Assembly (NCBI RefSeq): GCF_027319265.1
Contig: NZ_DAHVNP010000037.1
Location: forward strand, 1-64,000
DNA from: Ferrimicrobium sp.
GTDB lineage: Bacteria > Actinomycetota > Acidimicrobiia > Acidimicrobiales > Acidimicrobiaceae
DNA length: 64,000 nt
Reading direction: 5' to 3'
The notes beneath the pieces were generated by a model, which was not told where the DNA came from, ran no database searches, and worked only from the letters and a program-made list of their open reading frames with translations. Positions 1 to 48,454 of the stretch are shown here, one piece after another. Position 1 is the first letter of the stretch; each line of letters starts with the position of its first letter. The position numbers were made by a program, and so were the translations under genes.

Positions 1-44
<44 letters not shown>

Positions 45-47
45 GAG

Positions 48-120
48 CTCCGGGGGAGAGACTCGAACTCTCAACCACACGGTTAACAGCCGCGTGCTCT
101 GCCGATTGAGCTACCCCGGA
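48..120 (-). tRNA. tRNA-Asn (GUU)
   Basis: A complete cloverleaf is readable on the minus strand. The acceptor stem TCCGGGG pairs with CCCCGGA and is followed by discriminator G. The D-arm is TAGCTCAATCGGCAGAGCA, the anticodon loop CTGTTAA gives GUU, and the T-arm contains GTTCGAGTC. No CCA is encoded. It lies about 60 bases downstream of the sigma factor stop, on the same strand. Confidence 0.95.
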
Positions 121-179
121 ATAGACTACACAATCTAGCAGATCAATCCATGTAACCGGCCATGGCACGTGCCAACATC

Positions 180-1343
180 CTAACCATCGCGGAGGACCTC
201 CTTGAGAGCTTGCGTCGACTCATTACGGCGCAGCCGAGAGATCGCGCGTGCCTCCACTTGACGGACCCTCTCTCTCGAGACGCCAAAGCGATCCGACGCT
301 TGCTCAATGGAGTGCGGCTCCTCTCCGTTGAGTCCGAAACGATACACGAGGATCGCTCGTTCTCGTTCCTCAAGCTGATCGAGAACAAGTTGCACAACTC
401 GCCCAAGATCCTGAGATGTCACGGTCTCCTCAATCGGCGGACTTGATCGATCCGGTACCGCATCACCCAGCACAGACTCCGAACCGCTATCAGTCGTGGG
501 ACTCGCCTCAAGCGATAATACCGATTGTGCGTACATCAGAATTTCCTCAACTCTGAAGAGTTCGAGACCACAAGCATCGGCGACCTCCTCAAGTCGCGGT
601 TCACGACCAAACTTCTGCTGCAGGTCGAGCCGAATCTGCTGAATCCGCTGAAAATCCTGTTGCAAGGATCGCGGCAAACTAATCTCATTGCGGAACTCTC
701 CTATCGCCTGCGAGATGGCTTGTCGTATCCACCAGGTGGCATAGGTCGAAAAACGAAATCCCTTACGACCGTCATAGAGCTCCACTGCTCGCATCAGCCC
801 GATATTGCCCTCTTGGATCAGGTCCTCGAGAGGCACGGCCCCTCCGTGCATACGTCGTGCGATGGAGGCGACAAGACGCAAGTTCGATGAGACAAACCGC
901 TCCTTAGCAGCAGCCAAGATCCGTTCTTCCTCGCGCGTGCGCTGATCACGACCTTGGAGCTCTTGCACAATGGCGCTTAACTGAACCTCCTCGTCTCGTG
1001 AGAGCAATGCTGCACCCGACAACGAGGCCAAGAAGTCGTCGGCCTCCTTGATCGTGAAACCCGGCCTAATAACCTGCAAAGACTCCCTCGCGGCGGATTG
1101 ACCATCGTGTCTCCCCTTCGCCGAGGTACGCCTGTTGCTAACCGACTTCGGTGTCGTCGACACCACAACCCCATCATCATCGGTGGTCCTGCTTGTAGGA
1201 GCTCGTGATAGAACGGCATCAGCATCCACGACGCTCATCGGAGGATCCAACTGTTGAGTACTCACCTCGTCAACTGCTGGGGCTGTCTCCACCGACTTGG
1301 GCCTGTCAGAAGGTGTCGCTGTTTTCTTATGACCGTCTGTCAC
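180..1343 (-). CDS. RNA polymerase sigma-70 family factor (RpoD/SigA-like)
   Basis: Sigma-70 family factor of 387 residues that directs RNA polymerase to promoters. The first ~95 residues are a Ser/Thr/Asp-rich tail of low complexity. Then come a diverged region 1.2 (DDFLASLSGAALLSRDEEV), region 2 with the core-binding and -10 recognition block (NLRLVASIARR, DLIQEGNIGLMRAVE, FSTYATWWIRQAI), region 3, and region 4 ending in the -35 HTH (FGVSRERVRQVEARAISRLR). Translation starts at a GTG that directly abuts the TAG stop of dnaG, a dnaG-sigma pairing typical of the housekeeping sigma factor. No long acidic region 1.1 is visible, so a group 2 (HrdB/SigB-like) identity cannot be excluded. Confidence 0.93.
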   Translation of the reverse strand: MTDGHKKTATPSDRPKSVETAPAVDEVSTQQLDPPMSVVDADAVLSRAPTSRTTDDDGVVVSTTPKSVSNRRTSAKGRHDGQSAARESLQVIRPGFTIKEADDFLASLSGAALLSRDEEVQLSAIVQELQGRDQRTREEERILAAAKERFVSSNLRLVASIARRMHGGAVPLEDLIQEGNIGLMRAVELYDGRKGFRFSTYATWWIRQAISQAIGEFRNEISLPRSLQQDFQRIQQIRLDLQQKFGREPRLEEVADACGLELFRVEEILMYAQSVLSLEASPTTDSGSESVLGDAVPDRSSPPIEETVTSQDLGRVVQLVLDQLEERERAILVYRFGLNGEEPHSIEQASDRFGVSRERVRQVEARAISRLRRNESTQALKEVLRDG

Positions 1344-5853: not shown

Positions 5854-6013
5854 GGTCGTCTCCTTACCATCTGCCTGCCCTGGAAGCGCGACGAACGGGC
5901 TGTTCTCCCTCCGCCTGATCGCTCCAGTCTGTCCCTGCCCGCTTGTGGCGGTTTCTTACCTGTCAGCGACGTTGCCGAGGTATGCCAAGAGTATAGCCAG
6001 ATACCCCGACCAC

Positions 6014-7348
6014 CTAACCAAAGGGTGTGGCGACTGGGCGAGCCGTGGAGTCCAGTCGCTCCTGAAGATACCGCGTAACCTCAGTCATTGGAATACGCAC
6101 TTGCTCAGTCGTATCACGATCTCGTACCGTCACCGCCTTGTCATCGAGCGTATCGAAATCCACGGTGACACAGAATGGTGTACCGATCTCATCCTGTCGA
6201 CGATAGCGACGTCCAATCGACTGGGTCACATCAAAATCACAACTGAACGCACTGGCTAAGCTCGCAAAGACAGCATCTGCAGCCCCCTGGAGCTCGGGTT
6301 TTCGCGACAATGGCAACACCGCCACCGTATACGGAGCAAGAAAGGGCGACAAGCGCAAGACGGTACGTTCCTCGCCACCTACCTCGTCTCGGTCGAAGGC
6401 TGAGAGCAAGAAGGCCATCATCGCTCGCGTCACCCCTCCGGCGGGTTCGATGACGTTGGGAAGATAGCGCTCATTGGTTTGTGGGTCGAAGTAGGTCATA
6501 TCCGTGCCAGAATGCGTCGCATGGGCGTTGAGATCGTAGGTTCCACGATTCGCAATCCCCTCAAGTTCGCCAAAGCCCCACGGAAACCGATACTCAATGT
6601 CGACGGTGCCCTTCGAGTAGTGAGAAAGCTCATCGGGATCATGTGGCCGTAAGCGCAGCTCATCTGCTGGAATCCCAAGGGTGCGATACCATTCGTAACG
6701 CTCTGTGGTCCAATACTGGAAGTATCGGTCAGCGAGTTCCGGCGGGGTAAAAAACTCCATCTCCATCTGATCAAATTCGCGCGTTCGAAAGACAAAGTTG
6801 CCGGGAGTGATCTCATTGCGGAATGACTTACCGAGTTGCGCGATCCCAAAAGGTGGCTTGAGCCGAAGCGCTCGCTGCACCAACGGAAAATTGACAAACA
6901 TTCCTTGCGCGGTCTCGGGTCGTAGGTAAGCCACGGAAGCATCATCGGCGACAGGACCGACAAAGGTCCGAAACATCAGATTGAAGTCACGCGCCTCGGT
7001 GAGATCCGTGGATCCACAACTAGGGCATACGCCCTCGATCTGGTCCTCTCTCCACCGCGAACCGCATTTACGACAATCGACAAGTGGATCCGTGAAACCC
7101 GCTAAGTGCCCCGAAGCCTCCCAGATCTTTGGGCTCGATAGTATGGCCGCTTCGATCCCTACCACGTTCGGACGCTGTTGGACCATGAAGTTCCACCACG
7201 CTTCGCGGACGTTGCGCAGCATGAGCGCTCCAAGGGGTCCATAGTCATAGGTCGATCGGAATCCACCGTAGATCTCGGCTGACGGAAAGATAAACCCCCG
7301 TTGTTTTGCGAGGCTGACAATGGCTTCCATTCGATCAAGATCAGGCAT
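6014..7348 (-). CDS. glyS: Glycyl-tRNA synthetase, dimeric class II type
   Basis: Charges tRNA-Gly. The 444-residue chain matches the alpha2 (eukaryote/archaea-like) GlyRS used by actinobacteria, not the alpha2beta2 enzyme. Visible signatures are the N-terminal GFIFPSAEIYGGFRSTYDYG, a zinc-type pair of CxxC motifs (CRKCGSRW and CPSCGSTD), class II motif 2 around FRNEITPGNFVFRTREFDQ, motif 3 around GGVTRAMMAFLLSAF, and a C-terminal anticodon-binding domain. It lies 45 bases downstream of recO on the same strand and is followed by a 160-base gap before ppdK, so ppdK may have its own promoter. Confidence 0.96.
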   Translation of the reverse strand: MPDLDRMEAIVSLAKQRGFIFPSAEIYGGFRSTYDYGPLGALMLRNVREAWWNFMVQQRPNVVGIEAAILSSPKIWEASGHLAGFTDPLVDCRKCGSRWREDQIEGVCPSCGSTDLTEARDFNLMFRTFVGPVADDASVAYLRPETAQGMFVNFPLVQRALRLKPPFGIAQLGKSFRNEITPGNFVFRTREFDQMEMEFFTPPELADRYFQYWTTERYEWYRTLGIPADELRLRPHDPDELSHYSKGTVDIEYRFPWGFGELEGIANRGTYDLNAHATHSGTDMTYFDPQTNERYLPNVIEPAGGVTRAMMAFLLSAFDRDEVGGEERTVLRLSPFLAPYTVAVLPLSRKPELQGAADAVFASLASAFSCDFDVTQSIGRRYRRQDEIGTPFCVTVDFDTLDDKAVTVRDRDTTEQVRIPMTEVTRYLQERLDSTARPVATPFG

Positions 7349-42032: not shown

Positions 42033-42066
42033 ACCCTAGGGTTGTGTGCCGTGGGGATGAGGTCTT
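42033..42066. repeat. 34-bp direct repeat, copy 1
   Basis: Starts ACCCTAGGGTTGTGTGCCG and ends GATGAGGTCTT; differs from copy 2 (42123-42156) at one base. It contains the palindrome CCCTAGGG. Between the copies are a degenerate third relative (ATAGGGTTGGTGCC) and a 7-bp hairpin (42069-42086). Confidence 0.85.
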
Positions 42067-42122: not shown

Positions 42123-42156
42123 ACCCTAGGGTTGTGTGCCGAGGGGATGAGGTCTT
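42123..42156. repeat. 34-bp direct repeat, copy 2
   Basis: Second copy of the repeat at 42033, offset by exactly 90 bp. It ends immediately at the stop codon of the flavoprotein gene, so it is the first transcribed sequence after that gene. Confidence 0.85.
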
Positions 42157-44532
42157 TCATTGGGTCAACACGCTCGCTCGTGCACTGTGGTGTTGAGCAA
42201 CTGACTTGTCCTGACGTCTCCACCCATCGATGACCACCTGCAGTTCATTCACGCTGGTCATCACCTTGGTCATTAGCTCGTCAGTTCCACGAAGCGCACG
42301 CAACTCATTGACACTGCGAGCCACCGCAGCAGCCAACTCCGGTCGGATACCGATCGTGGCACCAACCTCCGAAGGAAGAATTTCGCCAGCCACCAGAACC
42401 GCCTTAGTCAACGCAGCCGCGTCAACATCCGGCCAAGCTGCCACACTCAGGTCGTGGGCAAACCCGAAGAGACCATCGCCGTGGCTCTTCATGGCACATC
42501 GCGCAACCACCCTCAACCCCCTCTGCACAACCAAGGCTTCGAGACGATCCAGCGAATGCCCGGGATCAAATCCATAGGTCATGAGAACCGCCACCTGGGT
42601 TGCCGCACCAGCGGGCAGCTGACCAACTAGTCTCTCCGTCGCCGGGCTCGCATGCTGGCCGCCAACGACCAGACCATCCACCCAAGTAGCCAGCACCATA
42701 AGATCGAAATCTGCAACCATGTCCGAGGTAACCTGATCAACTGGCACAGCGACAATCTCATTCGTCACCGAACTCAACAGATCAGCAAGCCGTAAAGCCA
42801 ACGCTCGCGTCGTGCCTCCAGGCGAGTCAATGCTGATGAGCACTCTCGGTGGACGCAGACGCCCTACCACCGACGGGGCAAGCCTCGAGGAGCGATCCAA
42901 CAGACTCCTACCCAACTTACGTCCTTGGGCCATCGCCTCAACTACCGTTGAGGGTCCGATCAACGAATCCCCTACGACGTAGATGTGATCCTTCAAGGCG
43001 ATCTGTGCCCGAGCCCGAGCATGTTCTCGCCCAACGGATAGATCGCCGACGGCCATCCGTCGAGAGACATCATTGGCGAGACCGTTGAAGATGCCACTAG
43101 CCACCCAATGGCGATCCTTGATGATTGGAACCTCTTTGCGTACTGGCAGCGACGGAAACGTGGCTAATAGATCAGGTTCAATGCGATAACCGAGGGCTGC
43201 GACCACCTCATCTACCTCCATGACCCGGAAGACCTTATCCGTCACCTTGGGCCGCTGTTGCCGGTCTTCCTGTACCGTGGCCACCAACGTCGCCGCGATA
43301 CGACCATTCGCCAGCGGTCGAAGACTGGCTACCGTCACCGAGAACAGGACTTCAACACCCTCGTGCTCCGCCTCTCCAAGTTCATCCGGACGGACGAGCG
43401 AGAACCGACGATCCATCCAGTCAACGCAGGTAGCCGAGCCACCAAGTCGACGGGTCATGCGAGCGACATCCATGGCGGTATTACCAGCACCTACGACGAG
43501 GACATTCTTTGGACCCGTCAATCCCACATGATCATCTGAGTGATCCACGATGGTATGGTAGGCACGATCAAGAAAATCGTTGGCCTCGGTCACGTGCACG
43601 TTCTCTTTACCTGCTGCGGTAATGGGCAACGGAGCGTTCGCACCTTGTGCGATGATCACCGCATCGAATGAGCGCGTCAGATCCTCAAGAACCTCTAACG
43701 ATACCCGTGTGTTGGGGACGACCTCGACGCCAAGGTCTTCGAGTTGGGAAGCTACGCGTGACACCACCGCATTAGGCAGTGTGAACTCGGGAATTCCAGA
43801 GCGTAACAGACCACCGATCTCGGCACCAGCCTCAAAGATGGTGACTTGACCCCCGCCTCTTGCGACGACATCGGCGACACCTATTCCTGCAGGTCCTCCT
43901 CCAACAACTGCGACCGAGAGCCCCACCGGCTCCGCCTTCGTCGATACTGGCGCACTCCGATCCGCTAGATAGCGTTCGATCTCATGAATCGCAACCGGCA
44001 TGTCACCCGCGAGTGCGAATGAACAAGCGCCCTCGCACTGGGTTCCAGTGTCGCAGACCCGCGAACAGATCTCCGGCATCGACGATGTCGCCGCGAGCAC
44101 CGCCCGGGCACCATCGAAGTCGAGATTGCGGGCTGCTGCAATAAACGCAGGAATGTCATTATGGGTTGGACAGCCGCGGACACAAGTCGCATCCGGGCAG
44201 TTCAAGCAACGGTTCGCCTCTGCGATTAGCTCATCATCATTTAAGAAACCCACGCGAACTTCATGCAAATCCGCTCGAACATCTTCTGGCTCAAACAGGT
44301 GTGCCGGAACTCGTGCGTCCACCCGAACCGCTCCCTCGACATGAATCGCAGAGAAGGGGCAGGTCCGCTCGCATTGGCGACAGCCAACACATACCGACTC
44401 ATCGACATCGACCGTGTAGGTGAACTCGTCAAGGCTGATCGCCTCGACTGGGCATCGCACGAGGCACTCCTGACATCCGGAACACCGATCCTTCAAAACC
44501 GTAACTTTTGGAAATTCACTTATTGTTGTCAT
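42157..44532 (-). CDS. Ferredoxin - GltD-like oxidoreductase - flavodoxin-like fusion
   Basis: A 791-residue soluble redox protein from ATG 44532 (MTTISEFPKVTVLKD; AGGGGTG upstream). In order: two 4Fe-4S motifs (C17-x2-C-x2-C-x3-CP and C48-x2-C-x2-C-x3-CP); a glutamate-synthase-small-subunit-like Fe-S region (CLNCPDATCVRGCP, CDTGTQCEGACSFA); an FAD Rossmann fold (VAVVGGGPAGIGVADVVARGG); an NAD(P) fold (VLVVGAGNTAMDVARM); and a closing FAD motif (YVVGDSLIGPSTVVEAMAQGR). From about residue 560 comes a flavodoxin-like domain (VLISIDSPGGTTRALALRLADLL, LMVLATWVDG, VLMTYGFDPGHSLDRLEAL) and a helical tail. It follows the membrane ferredoxin gene by 11 bases. Likely moves electrons between NAD(P)H, ferredoxins and the membrane partner; direction unknown. 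Confidence 0.85.
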   Translation of the reverse strand: MTTISEFPKVTVLKDRCSGCQECLVRCPVEAISLDEFTYTVDVDESVCVGCRQCERTCPFSAIHVEGAVRVDARVPAHLFEPEDVRADLHEVRVGFLNDDELIAEANRCLNCPDATCVRGCPTHNDIPAFIAAARNLDFDGARAVLAATSSMPEICSRVCDTGTQCEGACSFALAGDMPVAIHEIERYLADRSAPVSTKAEPVGLSVAVVGGGPAGIGVADVVARGGGQVTIFEAGAEIGGLLRSGIPEFTLPNAVVSRVASQLEDLGVEVVPNTRVSLEVLEDLTRSFDAVIIAQGANAPLPITAAGKENVHVTEANDFLDRAYHTIVDHSDDHVGLTGPKNVLVVGAGNTAMDVARMTRRLGGSATCVDWMDRRFSLVRPDELGEAEHEGVEVLFSVTVASLRPLANGRIAATLVATVQEDRQQRPKVTDKVFRVMEVDEVVAALGYRIEPDLLATFPSLPVRKEVPIIKDRHWVASGIFNGLANDVSRRMAVGDLSVGREHARARAQIALKDHIYVVGDSLIGPSTVVEAMAQGRKLGRSLLDRSSRLAPSVVGRLRPPRVLISIDSPGGTTRALALRLADLLSSVTNEIVAVPVDQVTSDMVADFDLMVLATWVDGLVVGGQHASPATERLVGQLPAGAATQVAVLMTYGFDPGHSLDRLEALVVQRGLRVVARCAMKSHGDGLFGFAHDLSVAAWPDVDAAALTKAVLVAGEILPSEVGATIGIRPELAAAVARSVNELRALRGTDELMTKVMTSVNELQVVIDGWRRQDKSVAQHHSARASVLTQ

Positions 44533-44543
44533 GTCAATCACCC

Positions 44544-46091
44544 CTAAGACGCCGCATGCATAATGATGTACAACCAACCGGCAACCCCTCCGAGGGCCAC
44601 CATGAGCGTGACCGCTGCAACCTTAGCCCCTACCACATGTTGGGTCAGTGGAGCGAGATCGCGACGGAAGATCTTGAGCACCGCGTAGATACTTCCGATG
44701 ATGCCAATCGCCATCACCACCAACTGCACATCGACGATCGTCGGGTTGGAGATCAGGTGATAGTTCACCAGCGACCACTTCGAGGTATTCACGCCGAAGA
44801 TCTGCACAATGGCTGGTATCAGTCGTGGAACGTGCTTAAAGAACTTCGGTAGTTGTCGGGCGAAATAATCCATGCCAACGATCGGGATCAGCGCGTACGA
44901 CAGCGGAAGGAAGACCTGGCGGAATGGATTCACCTTCTCCATGAAGTTGCCTTCTGCATGAACCCCTCGAGCAGGATCAAGGAAGAGCATCTGGTAGCCC
45001 TTGAAGAGTGCCGCCGTGAGCAACGCACTTAGGACGATGATCACCAAGTAGTCGATCGGATTTGGATAGTGATTCCACCCCGTCATCCGGTTGAGATAGT
45101 TGTCAAGATTGGCATAGACGTTGGTGGCGTTGATCTGCTGATACAGGACCAAACCCCACAGCAACGCTACAGCCCATGCGATATCTGCACGGCGACGCTT
45201 GGGTGCGATAACCGAGGTGAGTGGACTCTGTAGATAGAAACCAACGTTGTTCGAGGGGCAGGCCTTGTAGCACTCCGTGCAGAGACCACAGGCCGCATTT
45301 GACTCCGCCGAGCCCGGCCAGGTATACCAAGGACATCCATAACCGGAGGTCCCACCACGCATGCAGTCCTTCGTGGTGCAGGCGAGGCAGACCGCCCGAT
45401 CATTGGTTCGAAAACCAGCCACCGACCCCATCGAACCAACCGACCCGATCAAGGCCGAAAGTGGGCAGAAGTAGCGGCAGAAGGTCCGGCGTTCGAAGAC
45501 CAGATAGAAGGTCACCGCTGACACCACGATACCGAGCACCATCCACGAGGTGTCGCGCGGTGTCCCTGGTCCAGCAATGTTGAAGTACTCCTCTAGAAAG
45601 GTGAGGAAGACAAAGGTTCCCACTGAGAGGGTAAAACCCCACTGCGCCCAGCTCTCAGGAAGCTTGCGGCCAAGGCCGAGCGGCTTCTGTAGACGCTTGA
45701 AAAGCGTACGCCGTTGGATCCACTCGGCAAAACCACCAAAGGGACACATCGAACACCAGGCACGACCGATCACGGCCATCATCACAAAGACGAGACAAAA
45801 CCACAGGTACCAGGTGATAGCCGTTGCGAAGTTAATCCCTGGATCGGCAACACCAAGGAACCCGAGGAAGATCACCAGCCAGAAGATGATCTGGTTCGGG
45901 ATAATCATCAAAAACTGTGTGGCCCGCTTGGAGAGGATCCGAGCGATCACCGGGTGACTCGCCACATTGGCTTTCTTAGGGAGATCTGTCCCCTTAAAGC
46001 GATCTTCACTGGCCACCACCGGTATGTGAAGACGCTTCGAGATCACATCATCCGTTACTAACTTGACTTTTGTCGGTTCGACCTTCGTCAC
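44544..46091 (-). CDS. NapH/NosR-like polytopic 4Fe-4S membrane protein
   Basis: A 515-residue membrane ferredoxin. GTG 46091 is chosen because AGGAGG lies six bases upstream. About eight or nine helices are visible. Between helices 2 and 3 is AWC113SMC116PFGG, and after helix 4 is RRTFCRYFCPLSAL, the paired CxxxCP-type motifs of the NapH/NosR/CcoG family. A cytoplasmic loop holds CLACTTKDCMRGGTSGYGCP and a full cluster motif CGLCTECYKACP. The C-terminal half adds four helices, more than NapH has. Likely exchanges electrons between quinol and cytoplasmic Fe-S/flavin partners, the neighbouring fusion protein being the obvious one. Confidence 0.85.
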   Translation of the reverse strand: MTKVEPTKVKLVTDDVISKRLHIPVVASEDRFKGTDLPKKANVASHPVIARILSKRATQFLMIIPNQIIFWLVIFLGFLGVADPGINFATAITWYLWFCLVFVMMAVIGRAWCSMCPFGGFAEWIQRRTLFKRLQKPLGLGRKLPESWAQWGFTLSVGTFVFLTFLEEYFNIAGPGTPRDTSWMVLGIVVSAVTFYLVFERRTFCRYFCPLSALIGSVGSMGSVAGFRTNDRAVCLACTTKDCMRGGTSGYGCPWYTWPGSAESNAACGLCTECYKACPSNNVGFYLQSPLTSVIAPKRRRADIAWAVALLWGLVLYQQINATNVYANLDNYLNRMTGWNHYPNPIDYLVIIVLSALLTAALFKGYQMLFLDPARGVHAEGNFMEKVNPFRQVFLPLSYALIPIVGMDYFARQLPKFFKHVPRLIPAIVQIFGVNTSKWSLVNYHLISNPTIVDVQLVVMAIGIIGSIYAVLKIFRRDLAPLTQHVVGAKVAAVTLMVALGGVAGWLYIIMHAAS

Positions 46092-46135
46092 CGTTTCCCT
46101 CCTCAGCACACCTATATATCCTCGTCCGAACTATT

Positions 46136-46160
46136 CATTAGCTATGGACTAATGGTTAGT
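46136..46160. promoter_or_regulatory. Nested inverted repeats in the Rrf2/NapH-like intergenic region
   Basis: CATTAG (46136-46141) N7 CTAATG (46149-46154), and overlapping it ACTAA (46148-46152) TGG TTAGT (46156-46160). The region lies between the divergent starts at 46091 and 46208, upstream of a TATATA box (46113-46118, minus strand). It is a likely binding site for the Rrf2 protein controlling both directions. Confidence 0.6.
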
Positions 46161-46207
46161 GTAGTTCAGTGATTTTGCTTTGTCAAGTCCGAGGGTAACC
46201 TTTAGCT

Positions 46208-47053
46208 ATGAACTTATCGATGTCACGCCGCAGCGACTATTGCGTACGAGCAGCGCTCTATCTCGCAAGGACTGCGGAGCGCACCGAGGCGACAAAGGTC
46301 AAAGAGATCGTGGCAGAGATGGGGATACCCGCCAGCTTTGCCTCTCAGATCCTCGCCGACTTGGTGCGCACCGACGTCGCAACGTCCAAACCTGGACGCG
46401 ACGGCGGTTATCGGCTAAAACGGGATCCCGAATCGATCACCCTCCTCGAGCTCGTCGAGGCTGGTGAAGGTCCGCTTCGCGCCGATCACTGCGCGCTTGG
46501 CAATGGACCCTGTCGATGGGACACCGTCTGTCCACTGCACACCAGCTGGCAGTCGACCGTCGCCGCCGTACGCGAACAGCTCACCACGATCACCCTCGCC
46601 GCCATTGTTGAGGAGGATATCCGTCTTGAAGGCAAGCACGAGGAACCCGTCGATGGTCACCGTTTCTTCCATAGCATCGAAGCGGAGGACTCTAGCTTTG
46701 TCGAACTACCACTTCCTAGGGTCGAAGAGTCGCTTGGACACCTTCGCGACCAGCAACTCCTCGAGGAACTACGCGACCCGCTCCACAGTATTGAAACCAT
46801 CGGCACTACGAACCTCGCAATGGCCTATCTCCTCGAAGGAGGAAGGCGGCTTATCCTTGAGCTGATCAGCTCTGGTGAAGAGACCATACGCCTTGAGCTC
46901 AACCTCGAGCCCATCGCGATCGACCCCCAGCGAGTGGAACTCAAAGGGCACGCCATGATCCGTACCAATAGATCGATCGATCCTGCTCCACTGGTCCGCC
47001 TCATCCTCAACAGAACCGCTCGGCTCCTTGAGACCGTAGCGGCCCAGCACTGA
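46208..47053 (+). CDS. Rrf2-family Fe-S regulator with C-terminal extension
   Basis: A 281-residue regulator; normal Rrf2 proteins have about 150. The winged helix has MSRRSDYCVRAALYLA, VKEIVAEMGIPASFASQILADLV and SKPGRDGGYRLKR. The cluster triad is C95-x6-C102-x5-C108, close to that of NsrR-type NO sensors (x5-x5), and the conserved Asp after helix 1 (SDY) is present. After residue ~150 an extra ~130-residue domain, predicted alpha/beta (LAMAYLLEGGRRLILELISSGEETIRLELNLEPIAID), has no family I recognise. It is divergent from the NapH-like/fusion genes, so it probably controls them in response to NO, O2 or redox state. Confidence 0.85.
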   Translation: MNLSMSRRSDYCVRAALYLARTAERTEATKVKEIVAEMGIPASFASQILADLVRTDVATSKPGRDGGYRLKRDPESITLLELVEAGEGPLRADHCALGNGPCRWDTVCPLHTSWQSTVAAVREQLTTITLAAIVEEDIRLEGKHEEPVDGHRFFHSIEAEDSSFVELPLPRVEESLGHLRDQQLLEELRDPLHSIETIGTTNLAMAYLLEGGRRLILELISSGEETIRLELNLEPIAIDPQRVELKGHAMIRTNRSIDPAPLVRLILNRTARLLETVAAQH

Positions 47054-47098: not shown

Positions 47099-48454
47099 AT
47101 GACCTGTGCTCTTTGGCTGCGTGGCGATCTCCGACTCTCTGATCACGCTGGTTTTGCGTTGATGTCGGAGCAGACCAAGCCCTGGGTCGCGTTCTTCAAC
47201 CTGGACCCGTCGCTTGCTGACGCGCTGACACCCCATAAGCGTGCGTACCTCATGTCGGCACTGGCAGACCTCGACGAACGCCTCAGCGCAGGACTAAGTC
47301 TGCTCTCCGTTGACCCCGTAACGACACTGCCGGGGCTCCTTGCAACGCACGGCATCGACACCGTCTACACCCATGGTTCAGTCGGTCCTGGCATGCGACG
47401 CCGGCTCAACCGTGCCGCAAAGGCCTTTCGCAACCAAGGCATCACCTTGGAGGCTCTCGATACCGCCTACGCCGTGCCCCCTGGCACCCTACGAGTGCAG
47501 GGCCCATCAGCCGCCAACACGTCAACGGTGCAGGGTTATCGTGTCTATACCCCCTTCTATCGAGCCTGGCGTCCGTTGGCGCTTGAAACCGAACCCATCG
47601 AAACTCCCTCTATCCTCGCCCCCGAGCGGCTCGCTCGCGACTTTACACTCGGCACACCCGACGAGGCTGGGGGTGAACGTGTCGCTCATGCAGATCTCGA
47701 GCGTTTTCTCCGTGAACGACGCGCCCGCTATCGATCTGATCGAGACTTTCCCGATCGGGCGGCCACCTCGGCCTTAAGCACGCACCTCCACTTTGGCACC
47801 CTGCATCCACGTACTGTTATCGCCTCCCTGGGGCCAGATGATGAGAAGTTCCTCGCCGAACTCGCCTGGAGGGAGTTCTACGCCGATGTGCTCCACCACC
47901 ACCCAACCGCCACGACGACAGAACTCGACCCTCGTTTCCGATCGATGCAATGGAGACAGGATGGCGACGAACCTGAGCTCCTGGCGGCCTGGAAACAGGG
48001 GCGAACCGGCTATCCACTGGTCGATGCGGGAATGCGGGAGCTACGCGCAACCCATCTGATGCATAACCGTGTCCGCATGGTCACCGCATCCTTCTTGATC
48101 AAGGACCTGCACTTTGACTGGCGTATCGGTGCCCAGTACTTTGAGGAACAACTCCTCGACGGCGATCTCGCCTCTAACCGGATGAACTGGCAATGGGTCG
48201 CCGGCACGGGGACTGATGCTGCCCCGTATTTTCGTGTCTTCAATCCGATACTGCAATCGAAAAAGTTTGACCCCGATGGTAACTACATCAGACGATGGGT
48301 GCCAGAGCTGGCTGGACTCAGTGCAGACGCGATCCACGCTCCGTTCGAGCATCTCGATCCGACAAGTATCGGCTACGTCACCCCAATCGTTGACCATCGC
48401 ATCGAGCGCCAAATCACCTTGGCGCGCTATGAGGCAGCGAAACGATCGGACTGA
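47099..48454 (+). CDS. phr: Deoxyribodipyrimidine photolyase (CPD class I type)
   Basis: Light-driven repair of cyclobutane pyrimidine dimers, 451 residues. The N-terminal Rossmann-like antenna domain begins ALWLRGDLRLSDH. The FAD-binding domain has STHLHFGTLHPR, ELAWREFYADVLHHHP, TGYPLVDAGMRELRATHLMHNRVRM, FLIKDLHFDWRIG and NRMNWQWVAGTGTDAAPYFRVFNP. The start is ATG 47099. It lies 45 bases after the Rrf2 gene on the same strand, so it could share its transcript. Confidence 0.95.
   Translation: MTCALWLRGDLRLSDHAGFALMSEQTKPWVAFFNLDPSLADALTPHKRAYLMSALADLDERLSAGLSLLSVDPVTTLPGLLATHGIDTVYTHGSVGPGMRRRLNRAAKAFRNQGITLEALDTAYAVPPGTLRVQGPSAANTSTVQGYRVYTPFYRAWRPLALETEPIETPSILAPERLARDFTLGTPDEAGGERVAHADLERFLRERRARYRSDRDFPDRAATSALSTHLHFGTLHPRTVIASLGPDDEKFLAELAWREFYADVLHHHPTATTTELDPRFRSMQWRQDGDEPELLAAWKQGRTGYPLVDAGMRELRATHLMHNRVRMVTASFLIKDLHFDWRIGAQYFEEQLLDGDLASNRMNWQWVAGTGTDAAPYFRVFNPILQSKKFDPDGNYIRRWVPELAGLSADAIHAPFEHLDPTSIGYVTPIVDHRIERQITLARYEAAKRSD

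Follow-up and report, generated by a model that had tools for sequence, protein, structure and literature searches.

Proteins of the NapH type (PF12801) are regarded as modular quinol-linked electron carriers (PMC8238504). In Nfn enzymes, a di-arginine binds the 2'-phosphate of NADP, and Arg187 of T. maritima NfnB, as its counterpart in all Nfn, hydrogen-bonds N5 of the bifurcating FAD (PMC6405883). Among regulators of the Rrf2 family, ScNsrR has a two-fold operator of 23 bp (PMC9338935), and Asp8 is a ligand in NsrR (PMC5411485). Here, we analysed a window of 64,000 nucleotides from a Ferrimicrobium-like member of the Acidimicrobiaceae, an iron-oxidising, acid-loving host, with a locus of three genes encoding a membrane iron-sulfur protein (MEM), a ferredoxin–GltD-like–flavodoxin fusion (FUS) and an Rrf2-family regulator with a START/SRPBCC-type extension (RRF). 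The trio is built from known parts, and no characterised orthologue was found, in line with the original remark that the combination is not a familiar named system. The system is not described in the literature searched on the trio, its hosts and the fusion regulator, which lay mostly outside subscription journals. Thus, this conserved trio of iron-oxidising acidophiles and their relatives, unnamed in that literature, looks like a real and undescribed electron path between NADH and the membrane.

Locus and occurrence of the trio

The original prediction had placed the three genes around one divergent control region, and this arrangement was confirmed with exact coordinates (Table 1). For MEM, translation more likely begins at the GTG at 46091, because an AGGAGG lies upstream of it and relatives begin with MTKVEP; the protein would then have 515 aa.

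Table 1. Genes, predicted protein domains and control elements of the locus (nucleotide positions refer to the window)
Feature	Position	Strand	Description
FUS	42157-44532	-	791 aa, soluble oxidoreductase
FUS, N-terminal 2x[4Fe-4S]	res ~12-64		motifs res 16-62
FUS, DPD/GltD/NfnB-type 2x[4Fe-4S] domain	res ~91-193		Fer4_20, 106 bits
FUS, FAD + NAD(H) core	res ~204-545		Pyr_redox_2, 70 bits
FUS, flavodoxin-like domain	res ~562-700		followed by a helical tail
MEM	44544-46109	-	521 aa, membrane protein
RRF	46208-47053	+	281 aa, Rrf2-family regulator, divergent from MEM
RRF, Rrf2 domain	res 5-136		C95, C102, C108, D10, H111 conserved
RRF, START/SRPBCC-type C-terminal domain	res ~148-280
Dyad 1, operator-like	46180-46202		AAGGTTAC-N7-CTTGACAA on MEM strand; position conserved in relatives
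Dyad 2, operator-like	46134-46156		ACCATTAG-N7-CTAATGAA; downstream of MEM -10 box
MEM-FUS promoter	46158-46186	-	read from sequence

Of 148 genomes sampled evenly across the order Acidimicrobiales, 35 encode MEM, of which 34 also encode FUS, and FUS occurred in none of the 113 genomes without MEM (p = 1e-32 for the association); in the single genome with MEM and without FUS, MEM is cut by the end of the contig. Wherever the contigs extend far enough, both genes are neighbours, in 80/80 named loci. MEM and FUS are one conserved unit, and the proposal of a self-contained, recurrent module, which rare co-occurrence would have refuted, is upheld. RRF was found in 28 of the 35 MEM genomes compared to four of the 113 others (p = 2e-19). 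Since the trio is kept across many families and dozens of related species, it is not a chance association. What the module consists of, how its genes are linked and how its control region is built are all well supported. An apparent pairing of long RRF with long FUS variants among the first 20 relatives did not hold up once more relatives were included.

The neighbourhoods also bear on the question of whether the module might serve as electron donor for an enzyme encoded elsewhere, such as one for NO or O2 detoxification, Fe(III) reduction or Fe-S repair, in which case MEM would only anchor FUS or draw electrons from the membrane. Regulators of the Fe-S and DosR types (see below) would agree with such a role, as would one locus in which MEM is located directly 3' of what resembles a gene cluster for SUF-type Fe-S assembly. 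However, this arrangement was seen only once, and no partner enzyme was conserved next to the trio in the neighbourhoods of the relatives examined; we hold a role of this kind to be distinctly unlikely.

Membrane protein, fusion oxidoreductase and proposed electron path

MEM was predicted to possess about nine membrane helices and matches Fer4_5 (PF12801) with 46.2 bits (gathering score 22). Similar to the NapH, NosR and other PF12801 ferredoxins, it combines membrane-embedded cysteine motifs (C119xxC and C211xxxC) with two cytoplasmic [4Fe-4S] motifs (C241/244/249/259 and C274/277/280/284); twelve of its cysteines are invariant across 61 sequences. Lysine and arginine residues number 13, 8 and 12 in the inner segments and 0-1 in the outer loops, and all cysteines except the membrane-embedded C105 are presumably located on the positive side, i.e., the cytoplasmic face. 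In contrast to NapH and NosR, MEM carries an additional C-terminal helical domain, in which D414, R418 and K422 are conserved within one helix, has FUS as its partner, and has no recognised reductase partner; of the terminal reductases Nap, Nos and Nor, originally noted as missing nearby, none was recognised on inspection of the stretch read. Thus, the NapH/NosR-type motifs and extra helices originally noted are both present, while the scores remain far below the NapH cut-offs (30.9 bits compared to 213 for TIGR02163 and 18.4 compared to 234 for PRK09477), and from this weak resemblance we infer that MEM might exchange electrons with quinone. An FMN-binding domain, which in NosR and flavinylated NapH-like systems is carried by the protein or a neighbour, was found in none of the three proteins scanned with Pfam, MEM, FUS and RRF (up to E 0.1). 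The search of the MEM model against PDB folds gave no meaningful match; given the moderate confidence of the model (pLDDT 75), this does not argue for a new fold.

For FUS, the predicted order of 2x4Fe-4S, a GltD-like FAD/NAD(P) core and a flavodoxin-like domain was confirmed. While the C-terminal domain of the window protein has no Pfam match of its own, Flavodoxin_1 (PF00258) matches this domain in 41 of 45 relatives at E <= 0.01, and residues 563-699 are modelled as alternating beta strands and helices. The profile matches of the relatives and the modelled fold together identify a flavodoxin-like domain, in which the loop residues S570, G573, T575, W617 and G620 are conserved. About one sixth of the loci encode a FUS without it, and the domain is therefore optional rather than essential. 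By both sequence and fold, the nearest proteins are NfnB, the T. maritima chain that is listed under DPD subunit A, and GltD. The FAD/NAD(P) core is common to GltD and the AegA/YgfT-type fusions, and AegA and YgfT also score as relatives in an NCBIfam scan; FUS differs from all of these by its fusion to a flavodoxin and its link to MEM, and it stays under every cut-off for GltD, AegA and YgfT (for GltD, 235.6 compared to 471.75 bits with TIGR01316 and 197.3 compared to 482.95 with TIGR01318).

In structure, the core is closest to NfnB (NfnI alpha, NADH-dependent ferredoxin:NADP oxidoreductase), with which FUS shares the core fold, two [4Fe-4S] clusters and the sites for FAD and dinucleotide (sequence E about 1e-54; Foldseek E about 1e-31). 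Unlike NfnB, FUS adds an N-terminal ferredoxin and a C-terminal flavodoxin and is partnered with a membrane protein. In all FUS sequences compared, the 'YRR' that contacts the NADP 2'-phosphate in the relatives is replaced by D/E371-W372. As the NADP-phosphate arginines are missing, FUS probably uses NADH rather than NADPH, by a residue rule which is not infallible; of the NAD(P)H originally suggested, NADH is thus favoured and NADPH appears less likely. Likewise, the position of Arg187 in T. maritima NfnB is occupied by T251 of FUS within an aligned GIPEFTLP motif, a residue which is invariant in a set of 50 sequences and T, S or V elsewhere. These substitutions bear directly on flavin-based bifurcation, in which FUS would split the electrons of NADH between quinone, reached via MEM, and either ferredoxin or its own flavodoxin domain. 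EtfABCX (FixABCX) is a membrane enzyme that carries out this overall reaction (PMC10734219). Bifurcation of the Nfn type was our leading guess from the fold similarity, with bifurcating NfnB subunits as the closest structural relatives of the core and two outlets linked to it, one of low potential (flavodoxin) and one of higher potential (MEM). It was lowered once the arginines for NADP and FAD-N5 were found to be missing, and the flavodoxin outlet is itself lacking in about one sixth of FUS proteins; we now consider bifurcation highly improbable.

Our preferred reading, to which we give an about even chance, is that the module carries electrons between NADH and (mena)quinone, with a side branch via flavodoxin, and is switched by O2, NO or redox state. 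In this path, the FAD of FUS would accept hydride electrons from NADH, which would pass via the four [4Fe-4S] clusters of FUS to the cytoplasmic clusters of MEM, and from there might be exchanged with the (mena)quinone pool, presumably in the downhill direction from NADH to quinone by default. The flavodoxin domain, with FMN as its putative cofactor, could serve as a branch to soluble low-potential partners in most, not all, lineages. If so, the module would represent a further route connecting NADH to the quinone pool. The opposite direction might be envisaged as well: MEM, with quinol and possibly the large proton gradient of an acidophile, would drive electrons through FUS uphill, so that NAD+ or ferredoxin/flavodoxin is reduced for the biosynthetic needs of autotrophs that oxidise iron. 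Such reverse flow would fit the iron oxidisers among the hosts and the presence of RuBisCO in 5/5 sampled family members; the conserved D414, R418 and K422 could serve quinone or proton chemistry, and the flavodoxin domain would provide a one-electron outlet. However, RuBisCO is not associated with the module outside the family (p = 0.52), a known ion-pump subunit is absent from the module, and control of the DosR and Rrf2 types is more in keeping with stress or hypoxia than with a permanent demand. Reverse flow thus appears possible, if unlikely. Pyruvate/2-oxoacid:ferredoxin oxidoreductase was not associated with the module either (p = 0.39), and together with the result for RuBisCO outside the family this indicates no particular metabolism; NiFe-hydrogenases, for which the search yielded many weak partial matches, were left out of the co-occurrence comparison.

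Regulators and shared control region

RRF belongs to the Rrf2 proteins by its scores (97.7 bits for PF02082, cut-off 30; 92.9 for TIGR00738, cut-off 73.3) and shares the Rrf2 domain and three cysteines with NsrR, IscR, RsrR and SifR. Its cysteine triad had been described as NsrR-like. This holds for the three conserved cysteines and their similar spacing, whereas the spacing (C95-X6-C102-X5-C108) is not identical and RRF is not close to NsrR, remaining below the equivalog cut-offs for both NsrR (PRK11014, 38.9 bits, cut-off 182) and IscR (TIGR02010, 63.3 bits, cut-off 207.55). The three cysteines and D10, which corresponds in position to the ligand Asp8 of NsrR, are present in 46 of 47 RRF sequences, and a histidine three residues past the third cysteine resembles IscR. 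RRF is set apart from these regulators, in addition to its spacing, by the candidate operator ACGTNTAG-N7-CTANACGT and by its C-terminal domain. PF10604 matches 15 of 39 RRF extensions (best E 1.5e-7), one of them with 28.6 bits (cut-off 27.4) over nearly the whole profile, and the extension of the window protein joins these in profile-profile comparison (probability 97%, E 1e-10). These profile matches show RRF to be a fusion of an Rrf2 protein with a START/SRPBCC-type domain. The profile of the extension gave chance-level matches only against the PDB, and a literature search for Rrf2 combined with SRPBCC matched a single paper, on Streptomyces natural products.

Two conserved 23-bp dyads, of the same length as the ScNsrR operator, flank the predicted MEM promoter, which consists of a -35 box TTGACA (46186-46181), a spacer of 17 bp and a -10 box TACACT (46163-46158); the TTGAC is kept in most relatives. 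Dyad 1 overlaps the -35 box and lies directly before the RRF start codon. The best dyad exceeds the 99th percentile of shuffles in 49/55 loci, the second in 47/55. Accordingly placed, RRF might act as an Fe-S repressor with a hydrophobic-ligand (START-type) domain which occupies both operators, one of them also ahead of its own start codon, and MEM-FUS would be expressed when the cluster or ligand state of RRF signals that O2, NO or the redox/quinone balance has changed. If this holds true, direct sensing of quinone by an Fe-S regulator with a built-in hydrophobic-ligand domain becomes testable. A more far-reaching reading, in which the module is an energy-converting or electron-bifurcating NADH/flavodoxin complex of a new, quinone-linked class in acidophilic Actinomycetota, governed by a new kind of Rrf2 protein that reads the quinone pool or another hydrophobic ligand by its START-type domain and redox by its Fe-S cluster, we regard as very unlikely.

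For the preferred path, an independent hint on the signal comes from lineages in which DosR/DosS appears to replace Rrf2. In three loci without RRF, a DosS-type kinase with a DosS/DosT-type GAF domain adjoins the MEM-FUS pair, and DosR-box-like palindromes upstream of MEM match 14, 13 and 12 of 14 positions in this set, compared to 13 of 2226 background segments that reach 12 of 14. The DosR homologue of the relatives has DevR as its best PDB match (E 8e-69). The likeness to the mycobacterial hypoxia-NO-CO response is confined to few relatives and does not extend to the window; thus, a putative DosR/DosS-type control might serve the same purpose in some lineages that lack RRF. To our knowledge, the gene set of the mycobacterial DosR regulon differs from that of the MEM-FUS relatives. 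Both the conserved Fe-S ligand positions of RRF and these DosR-type traits speak for a switch by NO, O2 or redox, as originally predicted, and the module, if confirmed, might then illustrate how these organisms cope with NO or with a shortage of O2.

Within the genome, only two perfect copies of the dyad core ATTAG-N7-CTAAT exist, and near-matches are fewer than for a reversed control; therefore, a larger RRF regulon is not indicated. In one genus, a second conserved match to the dyad, of no obvious relation to the module, is located after a citramalate-synthase-like gene.

Recurrence and layout of the trio

The coordinates originally predicted for MEM (the membrane iron-sulfur protein with NapH/NosR-type Cys motifs), FUS (the 791-aa ferredoxin–GltD-like–flavodoxin fusion) and RRF (the Rrf2 regulator fused to a START/SRPBCC-type domain) were matched exactly on re-reading the sequence. 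The trio also recurs across genomes, a point originally marked for checking. Of 148 genomes drawn evenly from the order, 35 have MEM; FUS accompanied it in 34 and occurred in none of the 113 genomes without MEM (p = 1e-32), and RRF was found in 28 of the 35 versus four of the 113 (p = 2e-19), both p-values assuming independent genomes, which related genomes are not. The two associations persist outside the family of the window's genome. Among the best 80 loci from a scan of 84,980 species, MEM is followed by the FUS ferredoxin domain in all 80; the GltD-like core is there in 79, a contig end accounting for the one that lacks it, and RRF is present in 66, either divergent or downstream. MEM was detected in 36 of 60 genomes searched, including the window's own (82 contigs, 2.88 Mb), and in 32 of 35 genomes of the genus and family, the three without it being 71-88% complete. 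A MEM with 92% identity to that of the window is found in a Ferrimicrobium sp. record; most of the named records are MAGs of Actinomycetes or Acidimicrobiaceae, and misbinning may explain two that are labelled Acidobacteriota and Dormiibacterota.

On the minus strand, FUS follows MEM after a gap of 11 bp, and the two are presumably co-transcribed; RRF is divergent. For MEM, GTG at 46091 is the likelier true start, since AGGAGG lies upstream and relatives start with MTKVEP.

Features of the window and of related loci (L, MEM loci in relatives; G, genomes)
Feature	Position	Remark
FUS	42157-44532 (-)
MEM	44544-46109 (-)
RRF	46208-47053 (+)
Site 1 (dyad)	46180-46202	RRF-MEM region; overlaps MEM -35 box, precedes RRF start codon
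Site 2 (dyad)	46134-46156	RRF-MEM region; just past MEM -10 box
Photolyase/cryptochrome-like ORF	47099-48454	3' of RRF, same direction
Direct repeat	42034-42051, 42124-42141	just downstream of FUS
DosS-type GAF kinases and DosR homologue	L141:4660-5838, L180:6275-7462, L185:1191-1841 and 5962-7059	beside MEM-FUS; loci without Rrf2 gene
PAS histidine kinase/LuxR-type regulator (examples)	L064:6959-7705, L116:5521-6906
Second MEM-FUS pair	L142:7733-11178, G459:C17, G497:C27, G468:C22, G494:C178	divergent
MEM after suf-like genes	L179:1-9000	MEM cut by contig end

An ORF similar in size to the photolyase/cryptochrome-like one occupies its position in close relatives and not in more distant ones. 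The direct repeat (CCCTAGGGTTGTGTGCCG plus ~15 more similar bases), whose second copy extends to the FUS stop codon, has no other copy in the genome, even with 2 mismatches allowed. The second MEM-FUS pair, seen in five genomes of the order, is a paralogous system; in L142 it shows ~37% identity, and no Rrf2 gene of the RRF kind was found beside it. In L179, MEM directly follows sufS-like and sufU-like genes on a contig with further SUF-like genes, the sole MEM-SUF linkage seen.

Cofactor sites and a putative NADH-dependent path

Sixteen Cys residues are invariant in FUS (50 sequences), making up two N-terminal ferredoxin motifs and the two clusters of a DPD/GltD/NfnB-type domain. The nearest relatives of the core, in sequence as in fold, are NfnB, GltD and the T. 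maritima enzyme filed as DPD subunit A. FUS departs from Nfn (NfnB) at two diagnostic sites. Where the second strand of the dinucleotide domain ends, FUS has D/E371-W372 instead of the two arginines that bind the phosphate of NADP. Such a replacement is the usual sign of NAD(H), and the site is predicted to be of NAD(H) type. At the other site, T251 of FUS aligns with the arginine that Nfn has next to N5 of its bifurcating FAD. Of the C-terminal domains of 45 relatives, 41 are flavodoxin-like; the domain is missing from about one sixth of loci, where FUS has ~560 aa.

All 12 invariant Cys residues of MEM (61 sequences) were placed on the presumed cytoplasmic side, based on predicted helices and the Lys/Arg distribution; the clusters are therefore presumed to be turned toward FUS, with no visible route to the outside. 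More distant relatives in other Actinomycetota are similar along the whole length of MEM, but carry a His-rich motif (e.g. SHLAHNLVHF) in place of MDYFARQLPKFFKH and have other gene neighbours, such as an apparent molybdopterin oxidoreductase operon in L137. MEM is thus a subfamily within a broader class of membrane polyferredoxins. By analogy with this class, quinone is the presumed partner of MEM (PMC8238504).

The simplest account of the trio would be an NADH-dependent Fe-S path to the membrane, expressed when O2 is low, NO is present or the redox state is altered. Electron flow from NADH to quinone would be downhill; the reverse, from quinol to NAD+ or flavodoxin, would require the proton gradient. 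Co-occurrence of the module with RuBisCO or pyruvate/2-oxoacid:ferredoxin oxidoreductase singled out no particular metabolism, and the latter is no obligate partner, as it was not found in the single-contig genome G012.

The original remark that the combination is not a familiar named system still holds: no model above cut-off assigned MEM or FUS to a system already described, and the trio went unmentioned in the literature that could be searched. Its component parts are already familiar; to our knowledge, the MEM-FUS-RRF combination, the NADH-type site, the flavodoxin fusion and the Rrf2-SRPBCC regulator have not been described.

RRF and the control region

The Rrf2 domain of RRF keeps the three Cys residues together with D10 and H111. 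D10 is located at the position of the Asp8 ligand of NsrR, and H111 lies three residues past the third Cys, as does a His in IscR. The Pfam scan assigned no name to the C-terminal domain of the window's protein; PF10604 (SRPBCC/START-type family) matched 15 of 39 extensions in relatives, and the window's extension group aligns to these with a probability of 97%. A short RRF without this domain occurs in a few lineages.

Comparison of 55 distinct RRF-MEM spacers yielded the dyad ACGTNTAG-N7-CTANACGT, usually in two copies per region. The positions of the window's sites relative to the MEM promoter (TTGACA-N17-TACACT) would fit repression of MEM-FUS and RRF alike. These two sites are among the weaker consensus matches, and for site 1, where the scan favoured a shifted position, the register was adopted from close relatives. 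Among the family-wide matches listed, the best are mostly at the RRF-MEM locus, and RRF thus appears to be dedicated to it.

A DosR-type input is suggested in some relatives. Sites resembling the DosR box, whose consensus we take to be GGGACWWWWGTCCC (independent of these data and unfitted), occurred at a threshold of at least 12/14 in 5 of 19 loci without RRF near MEM versus 2 of 71 with RRF (p = 0.004, exploratory because the test followed the sighting of sites in three loci), and in 13 of 2226 background segments. In L141, L180 and L185, where a DosS-like GAF kinase adjoins MEM, DosR-box-like palindromes lie upstream of MEM (14, 12 and 13 matches, respectively). The L141 kinase is closest to the DevS/DosT GAF domains (E 1e-43), and the L185 response regulator to DevR (E 8e-69, against 2e-40 for the runner-up). 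In L033 and L036, a DosR-box-like site (AGGACTTTAGACCC) accompanies the Rrf2-type dyads in the region separating the Rrf2 gene from MEM, which suggests dual control. A membrane PAS histidine kinase and a LuxR-type response regulator lie beside the trio in about one third of loci (31 and 33 loci, respectively).
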